From positions 1 through 43,040 of the forward strand of contig JADZEA010000181.1 of assembly GCA_020850775.1 (NCBI GenBank): a stretch of 43,040 nt of DNA. Reading direction: 5' to 3'. The DNA is from a bacterium. GTDB taxonomy: Bacteria > CLD3. The notes under the pieces are model-generated. The model did no database searches, was not told the DNA's origin, and worked only from the letters and a program-made list of their open reading frames with translations. Positions within the stretch are counted from its first letter, which is position 1. Each line of letters opens with the position of its first letter. The translations under genes were made by a program, and so were the position numbers. Below, piece after piece: positions 4,640 to 29,832 of the stretch.

Positions 4640-7378
4640 TTACGCACTTTCTAATTTTCGCACCACAATTTCCGCTGTTTCTCTTACTTTTGGCGATTGG
4701 CTTTGAGCCGCAAAGTTCACTTCTTCAATTAATTCTCTAAATTTTAGCTCACCAACTACATCAAGTGCTAAAACTTTTAGCCAGTTGTCGTTGCCTTTCA
4801 GCAGCTTTGCAACAGCACTTTTTGGTGTTGAGTAATCATTCCCAAGTTTAAAATAGTTTGCTCCAATTCTCAACTTTGCCTGAACTGAAATTTCATCTCC
4901 ATTCACAATTGGCAAAATTATTTGCTTGATGTTTTCACCAGCCAAAAATGAATCAAGAAATTCCAAAGCATTTGCTCTGATAAGTTTGTTTGCACTTTTT
5001 AAACCGTTAAAAGTCAAAAACATGTCTCGTAAATTGTAACGCAAACCCAAAAGCCTGAAAATTTTTTCGTAAGTTAGTTCAAGTTTTTCACGAACTGCTT
5101 CACCAAAAAGTTTTTTTGCTCTGTAATTTTCTGAAAGTTTACCAACAGCTTTTTCCACCAAAAGCAATTTGTAGTAGTACTCTGCCTTGTCAACAATCTG
5201 TTTTTCAATGAGTTGTGAATTAAAAACCAAATTAGGATTTTTTTGCTTGATTGAGTTCAGTGCCTTGATAATTCTGTAATCAACCAAACTGTCGTCTTGC
5301 CAAACAACTTTTAGAAGTTCGTCAACAACTTTTTGGCTGCTGATTCTTCGCAAAACAAAAGGAATGTTCCTGCGCAAGTAAAGATTTTCAGATTGATTGG
5401 TAAGTGTTTTCAGCAAAGGCTCAACTACAAAATCTTCGTAATTTACAAGCGAATTTGCCGCAAAAATTCTTAGCTTGCTGTTCGTTAGCTTGCTGACAAG
5501 AATTGGGATAAAATCCTTGTTTTTCAGTTTTCCAGCACTCAAAATTGCTTCTTTGGAAACCGTAAAATTACTGCTTTCAATTAGTTTCACGAGGAATTTC
5601 GTTGAAGGCGAATTTTGTGGTAAATTGCCAAGTGCTTTTGCAATTTCAACTCTAACCCTTTCTTCCGTTTGGCTTTCAATGATTTTTTCAAAAGCTAAAT
5701 TCTGCAAATTTTCGTCGTCAAAATGTTTCAGACAATAAATTACAGAAGCAATTTTTAACGTTTCGTCGTTTTGTTCAAGTAAATTTTTCCAAAGATTTTT
5801 ATCCTTTTCAGAATTTTTAGACAAAAAACAAATCGCTTCTGCAACAATTCTTGGGTCTTTTTCCGTCAGCAAAGGTCGCACAAGTTCAACAATTTGTTCG
5901 TTTGTTTCTTCTGCTAACAAAGAAATTGCTGCAAAACGGATTTCAGGGTTTTCGCTTCTGAAAAGTTTTGCAATTGGCTCAACAAGGTTTGTTTTTTTGG
6001 CAGAACGAACTAAACCCAAAACAAAAATTATCTGTTTTTCAGTCCCGTTTTCAAGTGTTTCAGTAACAAGTTTCAGGCTCGCAGAATCGTCAAAATCAAG
6101 CTCAACAGAAGAATCAATTTCAGGTTTGTAAAAAGTTTTTCGTAAAGCCTTCAAATATTCAGTTTGAGTTAAAGCAAGTAAAAACAGCCAAATTCCTATA
6201 AAAAAAATAATTAAAAAAGCAATTTGTGAAAGTGAAAAACTTAGGTAAGTAACAAAAAATAAAAGTAAAAAACCTGCGATTCCCGTTGCAAATCTATCCA
6301 CAAACATTTCAATAAAAGTCTTGACTTTTTTCTTAATTCCTGTTGAAAGTGGCATAAAAAACAGTTCCATAACTGATTTATTTATTGAAGTTGTAAAAAC
6401 TCCTTCGCTTCCTTTTAAAAAAATTCCAATCCAAATTCCTGTTGAAAAAAGTATGAAAACTGAACTGACAAGCATCGTAAAAGGCAAAATTAACCCTGAA
6501 AATCCAACTCCAAAACGTTTCAAAACAGGGCTTGTGAAAAATAATTGAAAAACAAAAGCAACAATTCCAATTGCTGTGTAAAATTCACCAAAAAAATCCG
6601 TTAAAGTGTCTTGATTTTGGTAAGTTTCTTTTGCAATCACTTTGAACTGAAAATCAACAATTGTTGAAACAACAACCGAAACAAAAACAATCCCTGCAAT
6701 AAAAAACAAGTACCTTGATTTAAAAATCAGTTGAACTGGTAAGTCTTTGTTAGATTTTTCCTTTTGAGTTTTTGGCTGCAAAATAATTTTTTTGCTCGTA
6801 AAAAAAGTCAGGAAAGTTGAAACCAAAAGCAAAAAAGCACAAACTAACAAAAGGTTCTCAGTTCCAAAAAAATCTGCTCCCTGGTCAGCAATTTGTCCAC
6901 CAAAAATTCCACCTGTAATTGCTCCGGTTCCGATAAAACTAAACAACCGTTTTGCTTCACGGGGATTGTAGATTGAGTTTGCAAAAAGCCAAAACTGGGA
7001 AGTTGTAAGAATGCCTAAAACTCCTGAAAAAATGTAAAGAACAAAAGGTAAAGAAGGATTTTGAGTTAGCTTAAACAAGCCAAAAAGCAAAATCAAAATT
7101 GCACTCAAAATCAGGTTTGTAGCAAAAATCATCTTAAAAAGGTTGAATTTTTCGCTAATCTTTCCGTAAAAAGTTGAGACAAAACCGACCACAACGGCAA
7201 GCAAAATGTAAAGGTAAGGAATTTCACCAACACTAAAATTTGTGAGAAAAACTGCGTCTCTAACGGCTTTCAGGATTGTAAAAGCTGCAATCACTAAAAA
7301 AATTTGGAAAAACATCAAAAGTGCGACTTTGTGTTCGCCTTCTTTTAAGCCGAAAAATTTTTGTAAAAATAGTTTCAC
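4640..7378 (-). CDS. NTT (ATP/ADP translocase)-like carrier fused to C-terminal HEAT repeats
   Basis: 912 residues. Residues 1-410 form a 12-helix major-facilitator-type carrier of the NTT superfamily: 'KKFFGL'-type cytosolic start, 'TILKAVRDAVFLTNF' at the end of helix 1 (compare K-x-x-K/R-D in nucleotide transporters), 'FWLFANSIYNPREAKRLFSF' after helix 4 and 'GTGAITGGIFGG' in helix 5. From about residue 430 to the end are repeated paired helices such as 'NPEIRFAAISLLAEE' and 'DPRIVAEAICFLSK', typical of HEAT repeats. Free-living bacteria are known to carry NTT-HEAT fusions, but their substrate is not established; nucleotide exchange is family-based inference only. The gene starts 9 bases after the Omp85 gene, in one operon with the second NTT-like carrier. 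Confidence 0.82.
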   Translation of the reverse strand: MKLFLQKFFGLKEGEHKVALLMFFQIFLVIAAFTILKAVRDAVFLTNFSVGEIPYLYILLAVVVGFVSTFYGKISEKFNLFKMIFATNLILSAILILLFGLFKLTQNPSLPFVLYIFSGVLGILTTSQFWLFANSIYNPREAKRLFSFIGTGAITGGIFGGQIADQGADFFGTENLLLVCAFLLLVSTFLTFFTSKKIILQPKTQKEKSNKDLPVQLIFKSRYLFFIAGIVFVSVVVSTIVDFQFKVIAKETYQNQDTLTDFFGEFYTAIGIVAFVFQLFFTSPVLKRFGVGFSGLILPFTMLVSSVFILFSTGIWIGIFLKGSEGVFTTSINKSVMELFFMPLSTGIKKKVKTFIEMFVDRFATGIAGFLLLFFVTYLSFSLSQIAFLIIFFIGIWLFLLALTQTEYLKALRKTFYKPEIDSSVELDFDDSASLKLVTETLENGTEKQIIFVLGLVRSAKKTNLVEPIAKLFRSENPEIRFAAISLLAEETNEQIVELVRPLLTEKDPRIVAEAICFLSKNSEKDKNLWKNLLEQNDETLKIASVIYCLKHFDDENLQNLAFEKIIESQTEERVRVEIAKALGNLPQNSPSTKFLVKLIESSNFTVSKEAILSAGKLKNKDFIPILVSKLTNSKLRIFAANSLVNYEDFVVEPLLKTLTNQSENLYLRRNIPFVLRRISSQKVVDELLKVVWQDDSLVDYRIIKALNSIKQKNPNLVFNSQLIEKQIVDKAEYYYKLLLVEKAVGKLSENYRAKKLFGEAVREKLELTYEKIFRLLGLRYNLRDMFLTFNGLKSANKLIRANALEFLDSFLAGENIKQIILPIVNGDEISVQAKLRIGANYFKLGNDYSTPKSAVAKLLKGNDNWLKVLALDVVGELKFRELIEEVNFAAQSQSPKVRETAEIVVRKLESA

Positions 7379-9156: not shown

Positions 9157-10458
9157 TTAATATTTTGTAAGTTCCTCAAATTTTCTACCTGCAAACCTTA
9201 CTGCCAAAATCCAAAGTAAAAGTAAGACCACACTCAAAACTGAAAGGTAAGGAATTGTTGAAAAATCTGTAAAAATTAACGTAATCAAAAGGCTGAATCC
9301 AACAGCCAAAGCCTTTGCAAAACGTTGTACAAACATATCAATGAAGGCTTTTGCCTTGTATTTTTCGTCCTGGCTTGTTGGAACGTAAAGAGTTTCTTTT
9401 GCTGATTGGTTGATTGAGTAGGAAAATCCGTTGTCGGCAGTGTTCAGTAAACTTCCCGTTAAAACTGAAGGAAAAAACAAAAACCCGACTGAACCACTTA
9501 AAGCACAAACGGGTAAAACCAAAAGTGCAATCCCAACTCCGAAACGGTTCATCACAAAACTTGTGAAAAACAGTTGTACAATCATTGCAACGATGTTTGT
9601 TGCAGCAAAAGCGGTTGCAAAAGCATCTCCAATTTTCTCTTTTGGAACAAGGTTCACGATTGCAGAGGAAAATTGAAAATCCATAATTGTTGAAACCATT
9701 TCGTAAAGCCCGACAATTGCAACGATTGAGAGAAGGTACTTTGAGCTAAAAACAAGTTTCCCACCTTCCAAAGCAGGATTCTCTTTCGTTTTTTTCTCAA
9801 TGGCTTCAGTAACAAGTTTCAAACTCACTTTTTTACTTGCAAAAAATGAAAACAAAATGATTAAAACCATCACTCCGGCTGAAGCTAACAAAAATCCTTC
9901 GCTTGAAAGGACTTCTGCTTTTTGTAAAGTTTTTAGAGTTGTTGTACTGAAAACTCCACCAAAAACTCCACCAAAACCAATCAAACCATAAAGTTTTTTA
10001 GCATTTTCAGGAGTTACGGAATCGTTTAGAAAAGCAAAAAAAGTTGCAACCATTAAAGTTGAAAAAAGGTCGCCGTAAAGGTAAAAAGTCCAAACTGTTA
10101 CGTCAGAAGGCAAAGAAATTAGCTGGCTGTACACAACCAAAGTAAGAATGAAAAATGCGGAAAAAATGTAAACGAGTTTTTCACGGCGAAATTTGTTTGC
10201 AAGCAAGGAAAAAGCCCAAACGGCAAAAAATGCCACAACCAAGTTTAGAATTTTTGCAAGCAACTCTGATTGTTCAGCATTAAAATTTATCCCCAAAAAC
10301 GTAAAGCCACTTTCTTTGTAAAACGAAAGGAAAAGGCTTTTTTTGATTGGTTTGAGTATCCAAAAAACAGTAATTACCAGAAAAAAAACAAAACTCATCA
10401 TCAAACTTCTTGGAAGTTCTGTCTTTGGAACTGAAAAAATATCTTTTAACGGGTTCAT
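9157..10458 (-). CDS. NTT (ATP/ADP translocase)-like membrane carrier
   Basis: 433 residues and about 12 hydrophobic segments. It shares family features with the HEAT-fused carrier downstream: 'WILKPIKKSLFLSFY' after helix 1, 'FFAFLNDSVTPENAKKLYGL' after helix 4 followed by 'GFGGVFGGVF', and 'NRFGVGIALLVLP' in the second half (compare 'KRFGVGFSGLILP' in the larger protein). The two are thus paralogues within one operon. Known NTT proteins exchange ATP/ADP or import nucleotides in intracellular bacteria and plastids; in free-living lineages the substrate is unsettled. It is the first gene of the minus-strand operon, divergent from the U32 gene across 117 bases that must hold both promoters. 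Confidence 0.8.
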   Translation of the reverse strand: MNPLKDIFSVPKTELPRSLMMSFVFFLVITVFWILKPIKKSLFLSFYKESGFTFLGINFNAEQSELLAKILNLVVAFFAVWAFSLLANKFRREKLVYIFSAFFILTLVVYSQLISLPSDVTVWTFYLYGDLFSTLMVATFFAFLNDSVTPENAKKLYGLIGFGGVFGGVFSTTTLKTLQKAEVLSSEGFLLASAGVMVLIILFSFFASKKVSLKLVTEAIEKKTKENPALEGGKLVFSSKYLLSIVAIVGLYEMVSTIMDFQFSSAIVNLVPKEKIGDAFATAFAATNIVAMIVQLFFTSFVMNRFGVGIALLVLPVCALSGSVGFLFFPSVLTGSLLNTADNGFSYSINQSAKETLYVPTSQDEKYKAKAFIDMFVQRFAKALAVGFSLLITLIFTDFSTIPYLSVLSVVLLLLWILAVRFAGRKFEELTKY

Positions 10459-11963: not shown

Positions 11964-12551
11964 TTAATTGGCTTTAGAAAAGTATTCTTTAGAAGCATCA
12001 ACAGTTGGTTTAATTGTGTCTGAACCAGGTTTCCAGTTTGCAGGGCAGACCTCTCCGTGCATTTCAAAGTATTGAAGAGCATCAACCATTCTGATAGCTT
12101 CGTCAACGCTTCTTCCAAGTGGAAGGTCGTTCACTACTTGATGTCTTAAAACTCCATTTTTGTCAATCAAGAAAAGTCCCCTTAAAGCAATTCCTGCATT
12201 TTCAAGCAAAACTCCGTAATCTCTTGCGATTGATTTGTTAATGTCAGCAATCAAAGGATATTTGATGTCGCCAATTCCACCTTGTTTCCTTGGAGTGTTT
12301 TTCCAGGCTAAATGTGAAAAGTGAGAATCAACTGAAGCACCAAGAATTTGAACATCTCTTTTTTCAAATTCTGCAATTCTATCTGAAAAAGCAATAATTT
12401 CAGTTGGACAAACAAAAGTAAAATCAAGTGGATAGAAGAAAAGAATTACTGTTTTTCCTTTGTAGTCTGAAAGTTTAACATTTTTAAATTCGCTTCCAAC
12501 TACAGCTTGAGCTGAAAAGTCAGGAGCAGGTGAAGCAACTTGTATTGTCAT
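11964..12551 (-). CDS. Typical 2-Cys peroxiredoxin (AhpC/Prx1 type)
   Basis: 195 residues, cytosolic. The peroxidatic cysteine is C48 in '[12 protein letters not shown]', and the resolving cysteine is C169 in 'GEVCPANW'. The enzyme reduces H2O2, organic peroxides and peroxynitrite with thioredoxin or AhpF as electron donor. It carries both features linked with sensitivity to over-oxidation: 'GGIG' (91-94) and a C-terminal 'YF' (190-191). No ahpF or thioredoxin gene is adjacent. It starts 26 bases after perR on the same strand, with AAGGAAA before the ATG, so regulation from the perR operator is likely. A strong terminator follows. Confidence 0.95.
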
Positions 12552-12577: not shown

Positions 12578-13009
12578 TTAATTGTTTTTATTTTGGCAAT
12601 CAGGACAAATTCCGAAAAATTCGTGATTCTGGTCGTCAATCAGATAATTGGTTTGAGTTTCTACAAACTCTTGTAAAATTTGGTTGTAAGACAAAGAGAT
12701 GTCAACAATTTTGCCACAATCATTACAAATTACGTGGCTATGCAAATCTTCAACAAAACCATCAAAATGCCTTTGTTTCTCAAATGTTAATTCATTAATT
12801 AAGCCTTCAATCGTAAGCTGGCTTAAAACTCTGTAAACAGTTCCAAGACTAATATTCGGCAATTCTTTTCTTGATTGCTCGTAAACCCAATCTGCTGTTG
12901 GATGGCTTCTGGTTTGTTTAATAATCTCAAGAATTATTTTTTTTTGTTTTGTAAGACGTTTACCCTGGTTTTTCCAGCCTTCGTGAATTTCTTCAATTTG
13001 TTTAATCAT
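12578..13009 (-). CDS. perR: Fur family peroxide/metal repressor, PerR type
   Basis: 143 residues from ATG 13009, which has AGGAT five bases upstream; the frame is open to 13096, but that start lacks a site. The winged-helix region is '[14 protein letters not shown]' to '[14 protein letters not shown]' (18-65). Regulatory metal ligands match PerR: H36, D83 ('HFD'), H90 and H92 ('LHSH'), D103 ('GKIVD'); Fur has Glu at the last position. Structural zinc cysteines are C95, C98, C135 and C138. PerR senses H2O2 by metal-catalysed histidine oxidation and derepresses peroxide defence genes, in keeping with the peroxiredoxin gene 26 bases downstream. An operator-like palindrome overlaps the predicted transcription start, so autoregulation is likely. 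Confidence 0.88.
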
Positions 13010-13019
13010 TTTTATCCTA

Positions 13020-13036
13020 TTGATAATTGTTACTAA
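13020..13036 (-). promoter_or_regulatory. Fur/PerR-type operator candidate
   Basis: Imperfect 17-base palindrome of the form TTnnTAAnnnTTAnnAA (minus strand TTAGTAACAATTATCAA), 10 bases upstream of the perR ATG. It resembles the AT-rich PerR box and overlaps the predicted start of transcription, where a bound repressor would block initiation. Confidence 0.5.
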
Positions 13037-13037
13037 T

Positions 13038-13069
13038 AGAAGATAACAACAAAAAAAAGTGAAAGCAAA
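13038..13069 (-). promoter_or_regulatory. Bacteroidota-type promoter of perR-peroxiredoxin
   Basis: On the minus strand TTTG (13069-13066), a 20-base spacer, then TATCTTCT (13045-13038). This fits the -33 TTTG / -7 TAnnTTTG promoter of Bacteroidota sigma factors, with the last two -7 bases off consensus or partly so. Transcription would start near 13031, inside the operator. Confidence 0.5.
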
Positions 13070-13086
13070 TGTTTTTTTAAAAAAAT

Positions 13087-15573
13087 TTAACAGCAAGCTC
13101 CGTCAACACAACAACCACTCACAAATTCATCCGGCATTTTATTGCCTTCAACAATCAAAAATGCTCCTTTGTAAGGTTCATTTTGCAGTTTTTGTGCTGT
13201 GTCTGTGCAGATTTCAATTGCTTCACCTCTTGGGAAAAAATGTCCTTCTTCGTCCATAATTGATTTAAAAGGTCCTTGATAAATTGCTTTTTGTCCAATA
13301 AAAACACAACCTTCCTTTTTCTCAAACTTGAAGCCTGAAACCGTTACAGAGAAAAATTTGTAGCCTTCCACACTTTTCCAGTAAGTTTTTTTTAGAGTTG
13401 CGAGTCCGTAAAAACCTGCTTCTTCAAGCATCGAAACAAAATCCCTTTCAGTCAAAGCTCCTGACAAACATTCTCCCCAAAGGACAGGATTTACTTGTAA
13501 GTAAGCTGGAACTTCAACTTCCGAAACAATGTCAGAAATTACAATTCTTCCGTGGTCCTTAAGAATTCGCCACATTTCAGCAAAAACTGTTTTTTTATCC
13601 GGTGAAAGATTAATTACACAGTTTGAAGTAATTAAATCCACACTTTTTGTTTCAACAGGGACTTTTTCCATAAATCCTTCACGAAATTCACAAACATCAA
13701 AACCAAGATTTTTAGCTACAAGTTTATTGTGTTTTTGTGCTTGCTCCAAAGATTGAAAAGTCATGTCAACACCAATCACTTTTCCGTTTTTACCTACTTT
13801 TTTAGCAGCAATAAAACAATCAATTCCTGCTCCCGAACCAAGGTCAACAACTGTTTCGTTTTCTTTCACTTTTGCAATGCTCATCGGAGAACCACAACCG
13901 TAAAACCTTTCCAAAACCTCACCCGGAATGTGGTCAGTATCGGATTTGTCGTAACTTGCCGGACAGCAAAGCTCCGCTTGCGGAGTTTCCATTGCTTCGC
14001 CGTAAAATTCCTGCATTTTTTGGTGAGACTTTTCATAACTAAGGTCAAGCACACAATTTGAATGCAAAGTATTCACTCCAAACTCTCCCAAAAGATGAAC
14101 ATTTTCTTCCTCGTCGCCACAAGTTACACCAAGTTCTCCCATTGAGTAAAAAATTGTTGGAGCGTCAAAACCTGCTTTTGTGTTTAGTTTTCGCCTGTTT
14201 TCAACGTAAAATTTATTAATTGCTTCATCCATCAAAAAATCATAAACTTCATTGTAAGGGTCTGCCCCAAGAATGTTTCCTTTTCCCGTAATTGCTTTTG
14301 AGTAGTAAAAACTGTGTTCAACATCTCCACCACCACAAAGGAATTTCCGCGAATCCGAGTGTGAAACAGCTTTTTTTTGGACAGTTGCGTTCAAAAACTC
14401 CTGAACAACTTTTGAGTTTGCTAAAATTTCTTTGAGCGAATTTTCGTTCACGTTTCCACATTCAAGTTCTTCAACCTGAACAAAAGCTGCGGAAGGATAA
14501 ACTTTTCCGTCAGAATAAACACAAAGCGAAGAAACTCCGGCAACACTAAGGTCATTTTTCACATTTTTTTGCCCGTTAATTCTTAGCTCAAATTCTTCAA
14601 AATTATCAATTACCACTCCAAGTGAATTTGCAAGTGTTTTGATTTCTTTAAGTTTACCGATAATTTCATAATTTTCAACTTCGTAACCTGAACCAATTGC
14701 CCGACCTTTCCTGTGAAGCCAAAGCAAGTGAAACCTGTTCACTTTCAGTTCTGAAAGAAGCCGGACAACGTCGTCAAGATTTTCAATGTTTTGCTTTGTA
14801 ACCGTTGTTGTGATTGTTGGCTGGTAACCAATTTCAATTAAATTTTTTATCCCGTTAACAATGTTTTCAAAACTTCCCTTGCCACGAATTGCGTCGTTAA
14901 TTTTAGCGTTTGAGCCATCAAGCGAGATTTGTAACGTGAGTTTTGTTTTGTCGTAAGTTGCTAATTTTGAAAGAGTTTCTCCTTTAAAAAGTATTCCGTT
15001 TGAAAGGATTGTCAGCTCTGCTTTTGTTAGTGCGGTGTCAATTAGTTCAAAAATATCTTTGCGGAAAAAAGGTTCTCCACCCGTGAAGTACATTTTTTTT
15101 ACGCCAAGCGCTAAACCTTCACGAATGACACTCAAAACTTTTTCAGTTGGAAGCCCTTTGTGTTCTTGCGAAGAAGAATTTACAAGGCAATGTTCACAGG
15201 CAAGGTTACAGGAATTGTTCGTGTGAACCCACATTTCTTTGAGAATTGCGGTTTGTAAAAAATCTTTTCTGCCAAAGTAAGGAGCGTAATTTTTAGGTTT
15301 TTCAAAAATAAATTTGTGGTAAATCCCTCTTTTAATGAAGTGGTTCACGTGAAGCCAGGATTTTTGCAAGTCTAAACCAAAAGTTTTGCTGTACTCCCGT
15401 ACAATTTCTTCAGTTGTATTTTTACCGCTTAGAAGGTTTACAATTTTTGCTCCTTTTTCATCCGTCAAAATCCAGTTTGGAGCCTCGTAATCAAGGAAAA
15501 AATAGCCTGAGTCATATTTTTTTTGTTCGTAGTCTGGTGTGTAAAATATTGTTTTTGGTTCAAAAGAAATCAT
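13087..15573 (-). CDS. PqqD-like / radical SAM-SPASM / ArsM-like methyltransferase fusion
   Basis: 828 residues from ATG 15573, which has AGAAGGG seven bases upstream; the ATG at 15600 has none. Three domains are visible. Residues 20-88 resemble a PqqD-type peptide-binding winged helix ('APNWILTDEKGAKIVNLLSG'). Residues 112-420 are a radical SAM domain with C122/C126/C129 in 'CNLACEHC', 'TGGEP' (164-168), and later cysteines C351, C372 and C413 that could hold an auxiliary cluster. Residues 535-740 are an arsenite-methyltransferase-like domain: 'VVDLGSGAGID' (575-585) and cysteines at the three As(III)-binding positions of ArsM, C560 ('YGCGSP'), C652 ('SNCVINLSPDK') and C702 ('CLSGAL'). The protein ends in 'GCCVDGACC'. 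The reaction is unknown: arsenic or thiol-metal chemistry, or peptide modification, are both possible. Confidence 0.85.
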   Translation of the reverse strand: MISFEPKTIFYTPDYEQKKYDSGYFFLDYEAPNWILTDEKGAKIVNLLSGKNTTEEIVREYSKTFGLDLQKSWLHVNHFIKRGIYHKFIFEKPKNYAPYFGRKDFLQTAILKEMWVHTNNSCNLACEHCLVNSSSQEHKGLPTEKVLSVIREGLALGVKKMYFTGGEPFFRKDIFELIDTALTKAELTILSNGILFKGETLSKLATYDKTKLTLQISLDGSNAKINDAIRGKGSFENIVNGIKNLIEIGYQPTITTTVTKQNIENLDDVVRLLSELKVNRFHLLWLHRKGRAIGSGYEVENYEIIGKLKEIKTLANSLGVVIDNFEEFELRINGQKNVKNDLSVAGVSSLCVYSDGKVYPSAAFVQVEELECGNVNENSLKEILANSKVVQEFLNATVQKKAVSHSDSRKFLCGGGDVEHSFYYSKAITGKGNILGADPYNEVYDFLMDEAINKFYVENRRKLNTKAGFDAPTIFYSMGELGVTCGDEEENVHLLGEFGVNTLHSNCVLDLSYEKSHQKMQEFYGEAMETPQAELCCPASYDKSDTDHIPGEVLERFYGCGSPMSIAKVKENETVVDLGSGAGIDCFIAAKKVGKNGKVIGVDMTFQSLEQAQKHNKLVAKNLGFDVCEFREGFMEKVPVETKSVDLITSNCVINLSPDKKTVFAEMWRILKDHGRIVISDIVSEVEVPAYLQVNPVLWGECLSGALTERDFVSMLEEAGFYGLATLKKTYWKSVEGYKFFSVTVSGFKFEKKEGCVFIGQKAIYQGPFKSIMDEEGHFFPRGEAIEICTDTAQKLQNEPYKGAFLIVEGNKMPDEFVSGCCVDGACC

Positions 15574-15717
15574 TGTTACCCTTCTAAAATTAGTTTGCAT
15601 TTTGGAACGGAACTTAAAAACAGTTTTGGCTAAAAACTATTCCAAAAAATTAGCTTTTTCTTTTTAGCCTTTTCTAACTTAACTTTTCACGTCCAAAATT
15701 AACTTTAAAATTATCCG

Positions 15718-28938: not shown

Positions 28939-29832
28939 ATGAAATACTTACCAATTTTTCTTTTACTTTTTGTCTTTGCCTGTAGTGAGGACGCAAAACG
29001 ACTTTCCCAACTTGAGGAAGAAAACGCACAATTAAAAACTGAAAACGAAGGTTTAAAACAGTTTTCGGAATCTAAAAAACAGTACGACGAGTACATCGCA
29101 GAAGTAACCCAAACAATTCAGGAAGTCCAGGACAGCCTTGAGACAATCCGCAGCAAGGAAACAAGCATAAAAATCATCTCTGAAAACGTAGAAAGTGGAA
29201 AAATGCCACCAACTCAAAGAGAAAAAATAATTTCTGCAATTTCAGAAATTGGTTCAAATTTGCGGGCAAACAAGGATAAAATTGCACAGTTGCAGAACAA
29301 ACTTAAATCTTATGATTTTAAAATCAAAGGTTTGAACACTCTTGTAGAAAACCTGAACAAAACAATCATTGAAAAAGAAGAAAACATCGCAAAACTACAA
29401 GACGAAATCGGCATTTTAAACGAAGAAATCAAAGGTTTGCAGACAAAAGTTTCCGAAAAAGAAGTTACAATTTCTGAAAAAGAAAAAGTGATTGCCGACC
29501 AAACCAAAGAAATGAACACCTGCTACTACGTCATCGGAACACAAAAAGAACTGGAAGCCAAAAAAATTATTGGTGAGTCCGGTGGTTTTTTGGGAATCAA
29601 CAAAAAAGTTTCTGTCAAAGAACTTGAGCGGGATAATTTTAATCCAATTGACATCACTCAACAAACAGAAATCCAAATTGGGCACGAACCTGACAAAGTA
29701 AAAATTCTTTCCCAACAACCAAAAACCTACTACGAACTGGTTAAAAACGGGAAAAAGGCTTCAACTATCAAAATTAACAACGTGCAGAAATTTTGGGAAT
29801 CCTCAAAGTATCTCGTGATTTTGATTGATTAG
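28939..29832 (+). CDS. Coiled-coil lipoprotein, Cbp1-like
   Basis: 297 residues. The lipobox 'FVFAC' puts the lipid-modified cysteine at 15. Residues 20-195 are a long coiled coil ('SQLEEENAQLKTENEGLKQF', 'KGLNTLVENLNKTIIEKEEN'). A compact C-terminal domain follows ('NTCYYVIGTQKELEAKKII', ending 'KFWESSKYLVILID'). That C-terminal pattern recalls Bacteroidota lipoproteins annotated as Cbp1-family adhesins; I rely on memory for this, and adhesion is not shown. The protein is anchored in the inner or outer membrane and faces the periplasm or outside. It follows the sigma-54 activator by 97 bases and may be its target; a terminator follows. Confidence 0.75.
   Translation: MKYLPIFLLLFVFACSEDAKRLSQLEEENAQLKTENEGLKQFSESKKQYDEYIAEVTQTIQEVQDSLETIRSKETSIKIISENVESGKMPPTQREKIISAISEIGSNLRANKDKIAQLQNKLKSYDFKIKGLNTLVENLNKTIIEKEENIAKLQDEIGILNEEIKGLQTKVSEKEVTISEKEKVIADQTKEMNTCYYVIGTQKELEAKKIIGESGGFLGINKKVSVKELERDNFNPIDITQQTEIQIGHEPDKVKILSQQPKTYYELVKNGKKASTIKINNVQKFWESSKYLVILID

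Follow-up and report, generated by a model that had tools for sequence, protein, structure and literature searches.

Arsenosugars are a main form of arsenic in many aquatic food chains, and the organisms that make them, beyond cyanobacteria and algae, are to our knowledge poorly known. ArsM carries out up to three methylations of As(III). In Synechocystis, the first steps of arsenosugar biosynthesis are performed by ArsM together with ArsS (PMC8552651), and the passage of PMC12159101 that cites Cheng 2021 describes ArsS as the radical SAM enzyme by which arsenic is adenosylated in this pathway. In arsinothricin biosynthesis, a radical SAM enzyme, ArsL, and an ArsM likewise act on arsenic in sequence, but the order is the opposite, with the carbon group added first and the methyl group second (PMC8552651). 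Non-canonical cleavage of SAM is established for this arsenic radical SAM enzyme, and a single iron-sulphur cluster has been proposed for it (PMC8552651). Fusions of ArsM to a second domain have also been described: in ArsRM the partner is a regulator (PMC10190100), and in the ArsM-AhpD (NF041537) and ArsM-DUF2284 (NF041536) selenoproteins it is AhpD or DUF2284.

The protein described here resembles these fusions in carrying a second domain joined to ArsM, but its partner is a radical SAM enzyme. Its gene lies in the window, that is, the whole stretch of 43,040 nucleotides of bacterial DNA that was analysed. We consider it probable that the protein is a single-chain bifunctional organoarsenical synthase, acting in place of the ArsM and ArsS of arsenosugar biosynthesis. 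A literature search, conducted mostly outside subscription journals, did not find a published description of such a fusion. The gene and its immediate surroundings are as follows:

13087..15573, minus strand: fusion gene (PqqD/RRE-like, radical SAM, degenerate SPASM and ArsM parts), intact, 828 aa
15579..15585, minus strand: AGAAGGG, likely ribosome-binding site, 5 nt upstream of the ATG at 15573, read directly
12578..13096, minus strand: Fur/PerR-type regulator directly downstream (PF01475, 8e-26), overlapping the end of the fusion gene, start codon uncertain
11964..12551, minus strand: typical 2-Cys peroxiredoxin further downstream (PF00578, 1.7e-40)

The reading frame is free of stops across 13087-15600 on the minus strand, and among its starts the ATG at 15573 appears the better choice because AGAAGGG lies 5 nt upstream and the alignment with the homologue in the nearest relative (L001) begins there; residues are numbered from this codon, as in the first-pass annotation. 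Co-transcription of the Fur/PerR-type regulator with the fusion gene is possible. The closest relative of the gene (86% identity) comes from a Calditrichaeota bacterium, and by this relative the genome of the window would belong to Calditrichota. The same genome carries a second, standalone ArsM (G000:C172:2513-3298, L125) adjoining an ArsR-like regulator gene. Elsewhere in the window, two TLC-type ATP/ADP transporter-like proteins, one of them joined to HEAT repeats, are encoded close together (4640-7378 and 9157-10458, both minus strand) near an Omp85-family gene, and the product of 28939-29832 (plus strand) matches the Cbp1 family adhesin model NF052320 at 185 bits (cut-off 90), in this presumed Calditrichota genome.

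Whole-genome searches recovered homologues where an earlier scan of contigs with short exact peptides had given two relatives. As judged from the sequences gathered, the fusion is not a one-off but an unnamed family, with members in Calditrichota and Nitrospirota as well as several further lineages; a plasmid search with the window protein gave zero full-length matches. A-type fusions, the kind found in the window, are mostly 820-890 aa long and have a full ArsM C-terminal domain; the search for the same domain order and cysteine tail, suggested in the first-pass annotation, found them in several lineages, with the terminal CC present in all 24. B-type fusions, found in Nitrospirota (L062-L067, L069-L071, L081), are about 803 aa long, with an N-terminal CC, intact SPASM cysteines and no ArsM C-terminal domain, and in nearly all loci examined they are followed by a gene of about 494 aa for a B12-binding radical SAM protein. 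About half of the B-type genomes also contain ArsS, so B-type fusions are not claimed here as arsenosugar enzymes, a role that was considered and dropped; their product may be another organoarsenical. C-type fusions are about 1020 aa long and carry a DUF5714 domain at their C-terminus (L114:6318-9365, L115:15-3101). In a split form, the radical SAM part is a gene of its own in four Nitrospirota genomes (G083, G064, G074 and G092, the last copy being cut by a contig end), and a separate matching ArsM gene is present in the first three. Cysteine conservation was tabulated for 41 sequences, of which 38 bear the radical SAM part.

The C-terminal half of the window protein comprises the following features:

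13126..14037, minus strand: ArsM module, methyltransferase fold and ArsM C-terminal domain, residues 513-816 (NCBIfam, PDB sequence and Foldseek matches)
13963..13968, minus strand: C536-C537, a CC pair close to the N-terminus of the ArsM part, around CmArsM C44, present in 24/24 A-type
13894..13896, minus strand: C560, CmArsM C72 position by alignment to solved ArsMs
13618..13620, minus strand: C652, CmArsM C174 position by the same alignment
13468..13470, minus strand: C702, CmArsM C224 position by the same alignment

The module matches Methyltransf_31 of Pfam (2.7e-31), aligns with solved ArsM structures in a PDB sequence search (E about 1e-38) and, in a Foldseek search with the back half of the model, matches ArsM 4kw7 (E=1.8e-20, TMt 0.62) as well as human AS3MT. 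Its scores against the NCBIfam models NF008823 (231 bits, cut-off 263), NF040538 (220, cut-off 500) and NF038099 (154, cut-off 400) are all below cut-off, and we therefore name it ArsM-like by its ligands and fold, not as a member of a curated subfamily. The As(III)-binding cysteines, which we take to be C72, C174 and C224 in CmArsM numbering, had been reported as kept, with their loss in close homologues named as an outcome that would speak against the proposal; C560, C652 and C702 are in fact invariant in 24/24 A-type, 9/9 B-type and 2/2 C-type fusions and in 3/3 split ArsM proteins. Aligned over its whole length, the fused ArsM shows about 50% identity to standalone ArsMs from Nitrospirota that have ArsS, and it clusters with these. 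In the ArsM tree, the 24 A-type modules form a group (99/98) beside the split ArsMs and these standalone ArsMs, and the B-type modules lie close to the group that holds the arsinothricin and S. aureus ArsMs.

The features of the N-terminal half are:

15289..15573, minus strand: PqqD/RRE-like winged-helix domain, residues 1-95, degenerate (PF05402, E=0.011 in the window protein, below the Pfam cut-off)
14755..15216, minus strand: radical SAM core, residues 120-273 (PF04055, E=2.7e-23)
15187..15210, minus strand: CX3CX2C [4Fe-4S] motif, C122/C126/C129, invariant in all 38 members bearing the radical SAM part
14251..14532, minus strand: SPASM-like region, residues about 348-441, with most of the auxiliary-cluster cysteines gone (PF13186, 1.7e-5)
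14053..14055, minus strand: C507 in an HSNCVL motif at the end of the radical SAM half, invariant in 38/38, candidate arsenic-handling thiol

The statement that known arsenosugar enzymes use another radical SAM family is borne out, as the window protein gives a weak match to an ArsS (26% across a 155-aa stretch of the core). ArsS itself, searched for as TIGR04167 (cut-off 300 bits), was not found at E 1e-20 in the window's genome or in any A-type genome. Structure was predicted with AlphaFold from an alignment of 24 homologues (mean pLDDT 83.7, pTM 0.82). In Foldseek, the best structural matches of the front half of this model are the RiPP maturases CteB (5wgg), TigE (8vpo) and SuiB, with which it shares the order RRE, radical SAM, SPASM. 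These alignments span about 470-500 columns, with a TMt of 0.71-0.73 in the case of CteB and TigE; unlike the maturases, the window protein has ArsM fused behind this half. The radical SAM half is closer to peptide and heme maturases than to ArsS, which counts against the reading of the fusion as an ArsS replacement. In the radical SAM tree, B-type and split forms stand together, and the A-type lineages are not resolved among themselves. The SPASM positions 361 and 417 are cysteines in B-type and split forms and are gone from all A-type and C-type proteins, and in the window lineage the SPASM CxxC pair is lost too; since these ligands are lost, A-type proteins probably keep a single iron-sulphur cluster, in line with the proposal for ArsL. 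The "extra cysteines" that the first-pass annotation saw in the radical SAM domain thus hold for C507, which lies outside the cluster motif, but the SPASM ligands are mostly lost. A motif of the HSxCVL kind containing C507 occurs in all A-, B- and C-type fusions and in the split radical SAM proteins, whose C-terminal end reads YHCSCVL[TS]V.

The PqqD-like domain appears to be real but degenerate in the window protein: PF05402 is matched by 30/33 homologous N-termini (best 2e-13), and AlphaFold predicts residues 1-95 as beta3-alpha3 with pLDDT about 90. Such a fold, together with the structural likeness to CteB, TigE and SuiB, which are sactipeptide and other RiPP maturases, might suggest a peptide system in which the PqqD-like domain binds a ribosomal peptide, the radical SAM domain modifies it and ArsM loads arsenic or methylates. 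We find this very improbable, given the degeneracy of the domain in the window, the lost SPASM ligands of A-type proteins and neighbours that are genes of arsenosugar type. The search for a precursor was negative as well: no intergenic small ORF is conserved beyond sister pairs near 24 A-type fusions, and a wider pass over the surroundings of A- and B-type fusions gave antisense shadows of the B12-binding radical SAM gene behind B-type fusions and nothing else. The suggestion that the PqqD domain delivers a peptide therefore finds no support, and consistent linkage to a precursor gene, which had been named as evidence against the arsenic reading, was not found near the 24 fusions.

TIGR04282 and TIGR04283 are arsenosugar biosynthesis glycosyltransferases by NCBI annotation, and they are shared between the cyanobacterial ArsM and ArsS system (NF038099, TIGR04167) and the fusions. 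In both, ArsM would be followed by a radical SAM enzyme acting on arsenic; the fusion differs in being one chain, in the radical half from another family with its PqqD/RRE-like domain, and in an ArsM half far below the NF038099 cut-off. In several genomes, the fusion adjoins TIGR04283 or TIGR04282, the place that ArsS occupies in others. The gene order is MerA-like, TIGR04283, fusion, TIGR04282 at one locus (L111) and fusion, TIGR04282, TIGR04283 at another (L112), while a C-type fusion stands at one end of a run on one strand comprising fusion, TIGR04283, TIGR04282, rhodanese and VTT genes (L115). The split radical SAM gene overlaps a TIGR04282 gene, and behind the split ArsM gene come a gene with a VTT domain (TVP38-type) and then TIGR04283, both glycosyltransferases scoring above cut-off. 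In L001, whose fusion is the closest relative of the window gene, a gene resembling TIGR04282 (at 54 bits, under the cut-off) lies directly upstream on the same strand. In the window's genome, TIGR04283 is on another contig (C127) and a TIGR04282 gene runs off the end of a third (C117), so the link there is one of co-occurrence, not of an operon. Overall, TIGR04283 lies within 6 kb on the same contig in 7 of the 31 fusion or split places checked, and ArsS lies less than 6 kb from TIGR04283 in 8 genomes of a sample centred on Nitrospirota and Calditrichota. PiT and DUF547 genes stand beside some fusions and also beside the ArsM of ArsS-bearing Calditrichota (family f2).

The genomic case for ArsS replacement is strong. 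In the first sample, centred on Nitrospirota and Calditrichota, ArsS is present in 0/25 genomes with an A-type fusion or the split form, although TIGR04283 is present in 24 of them; among the 27 genomes with neither form, TIGR04283 occurs in 14, and ArsS accompanies it in 14/14. Within Calditrichota, TIGR04283 is accompanied by ArsS in family f2 and by the fusion in f1, the family of the window. In a set of 386 mixed genomes, the fusion (11 genomes) and ArsS (71) do not overlap, which with so few fusions is not significant alone (p=0.23). TIGR04283 is present in 9/11 of these fusion genomes (Fisher p=6e-5), and among the TIGR04283-positive genomes ArsS occurs in 0/9 with the fusion versus 52/82 without it (p=3e-4), counts that span related, not independent, genomes and incomplete MAGs. 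TIGR04282 was present in 6/7 further fusion genomes. On the other side, 30 of the 91 TIGR04283 genomes of the 386 set have neither ArsS nor the fusion (e.g., G013, G478 and G503); these may use another arsenic radical enzyme, or the glycosyltransferase may serve otherwise.

This pattern supports arsenic as the substrate, which had been called plausible from the ligands, and the suggestion that one chain may methylate arsenic and then attach an organic group, since ArsS is excluded and the arsenosugar glycosyltransferase genes co-occur and sometimes adjoin. A different group could nevertheless be transferred, either another part of SAM, e.g., 3-amino-3-carboxypropyl as with ArsL, or another carbon radical, so that the end product would not be a classical arsenosugar. 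In favour of this, the ArsM half has a match to NF040538, the model for the arsinothricin ArsM, and the ArsM halves of the two systems are related, the B-type modules fall near the arsinothricin group, the radical half does not resemble ArsS in its sequence, and ArsL offers the precedent for non-canonical SAM cleavage (PMC8552651). Nonetheless, we regard this alternative as unlikely: A-type fusions, which exclude ArsS, occur in genomes with the arsenosugar glycosyltransferases, and no ArsL, ArsQ or ArsN was recognised among the fusion neighbours examined. The arsinothricin pair is unfused, ArsL belongs to another radical SAM group, and the export or resistance genes of arsinothricin were not recognised beside the fusion.

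The C-terminal end of the protein had been proposed as a built-in substrate:

13090..13113, minus strand: C-terminal tail CCVDGACC, residues 821-828, terminal CC in 24/24 A-type

The comparison does not support the tail as a unique built-in substrate. Only the terminal CC pair is invariant, the upstream pair not being conserved among fusions, and the tail is predicted to be disordered (AlphaFold pLDDT <50 at 816-828). Similar cysteine-rich ends are found on standalone ArsMs, including one on an S. aureus plasmid (...ECCDTSCGC), that of P. amygdali (...KSCCS) and that of ArsS-bearing Calditrichota (...GGGCC). As a unique feature, the tail is ruled out, and by these comparisons a tail of the CCVDGACC type is ordinary for the ArsM group. 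These likenesses also bear on a further alternative, in which the protein is a detoxifying ArsM with the radical SAM domain as an accessory, e.g., for tail self-modification or enzyme regeneration, and the products are plain methylated arsenicals. The conserved terminal CC and the PerR-type and peroxiredoxin genes downstream in the window would agree with such a role, yet those redox genes are not conserved as neighbours of other fusions, standalone ArsMs with no fused radical partner carry the same kind of tail, and both the exclusion of ArsS and the retention of TIGR04283 and TIGR04282 would be left unexplained. It is accordingly a highly unlikely account.

In the preferred reading, that of a synthase replacing ArsM and ArsS, the C-terminal half would bind As(III) on C560, C652 and C702 and use SAM to methylate it, the product presumably being a dimethyl-As(III) species. 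The radical SAM half would then cleave SAM at its [4Fe-4S] cluster and attach a carbon group derived from SAM to the methylated arsenic, with 5'-deoxyadenosyl, the group that ArsS transfers, as the most likely one. The As(III) intermediate may be held, or handed on through thiol exchange, by C507 and the flexible CC tail, and the TIGR04282 and TIGR04283 glycosyltransferases, encoded elsewhere in the genome, would complete the arsenosugar. The radical SAM half may descend from an enzyme like the RRE-radical SAM-SPASM peptide maturases, and its RRE-like domain could be a remnant of that origin or serve for docking. That such a maturase lineage independently became a C-As bond-forming enzyme, fused to ArsM and displaced ArsS in several phyla is a more tentative proposal, to which we give slightly less than an even chance.

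If true, this would add a third family of radical SAM enzymes that form arsenic-carbon bonds, and an example of a peptide-modifying radical enzyme redirected to a metalloid. It would also be the first case of one chain performing two successive C-As steps, in which arsenic is handed between sites on thiols (C507 and the tail), and the transfer of arsenic from one active site to another could then be studied within one protein. Surveys based on ArsS, the natural marker of arsenosugar makers, would overlook producers in Nitrospirota, Calditrichota and other lineages if a second radical enzyme, unrelated to ArsS, serves there.
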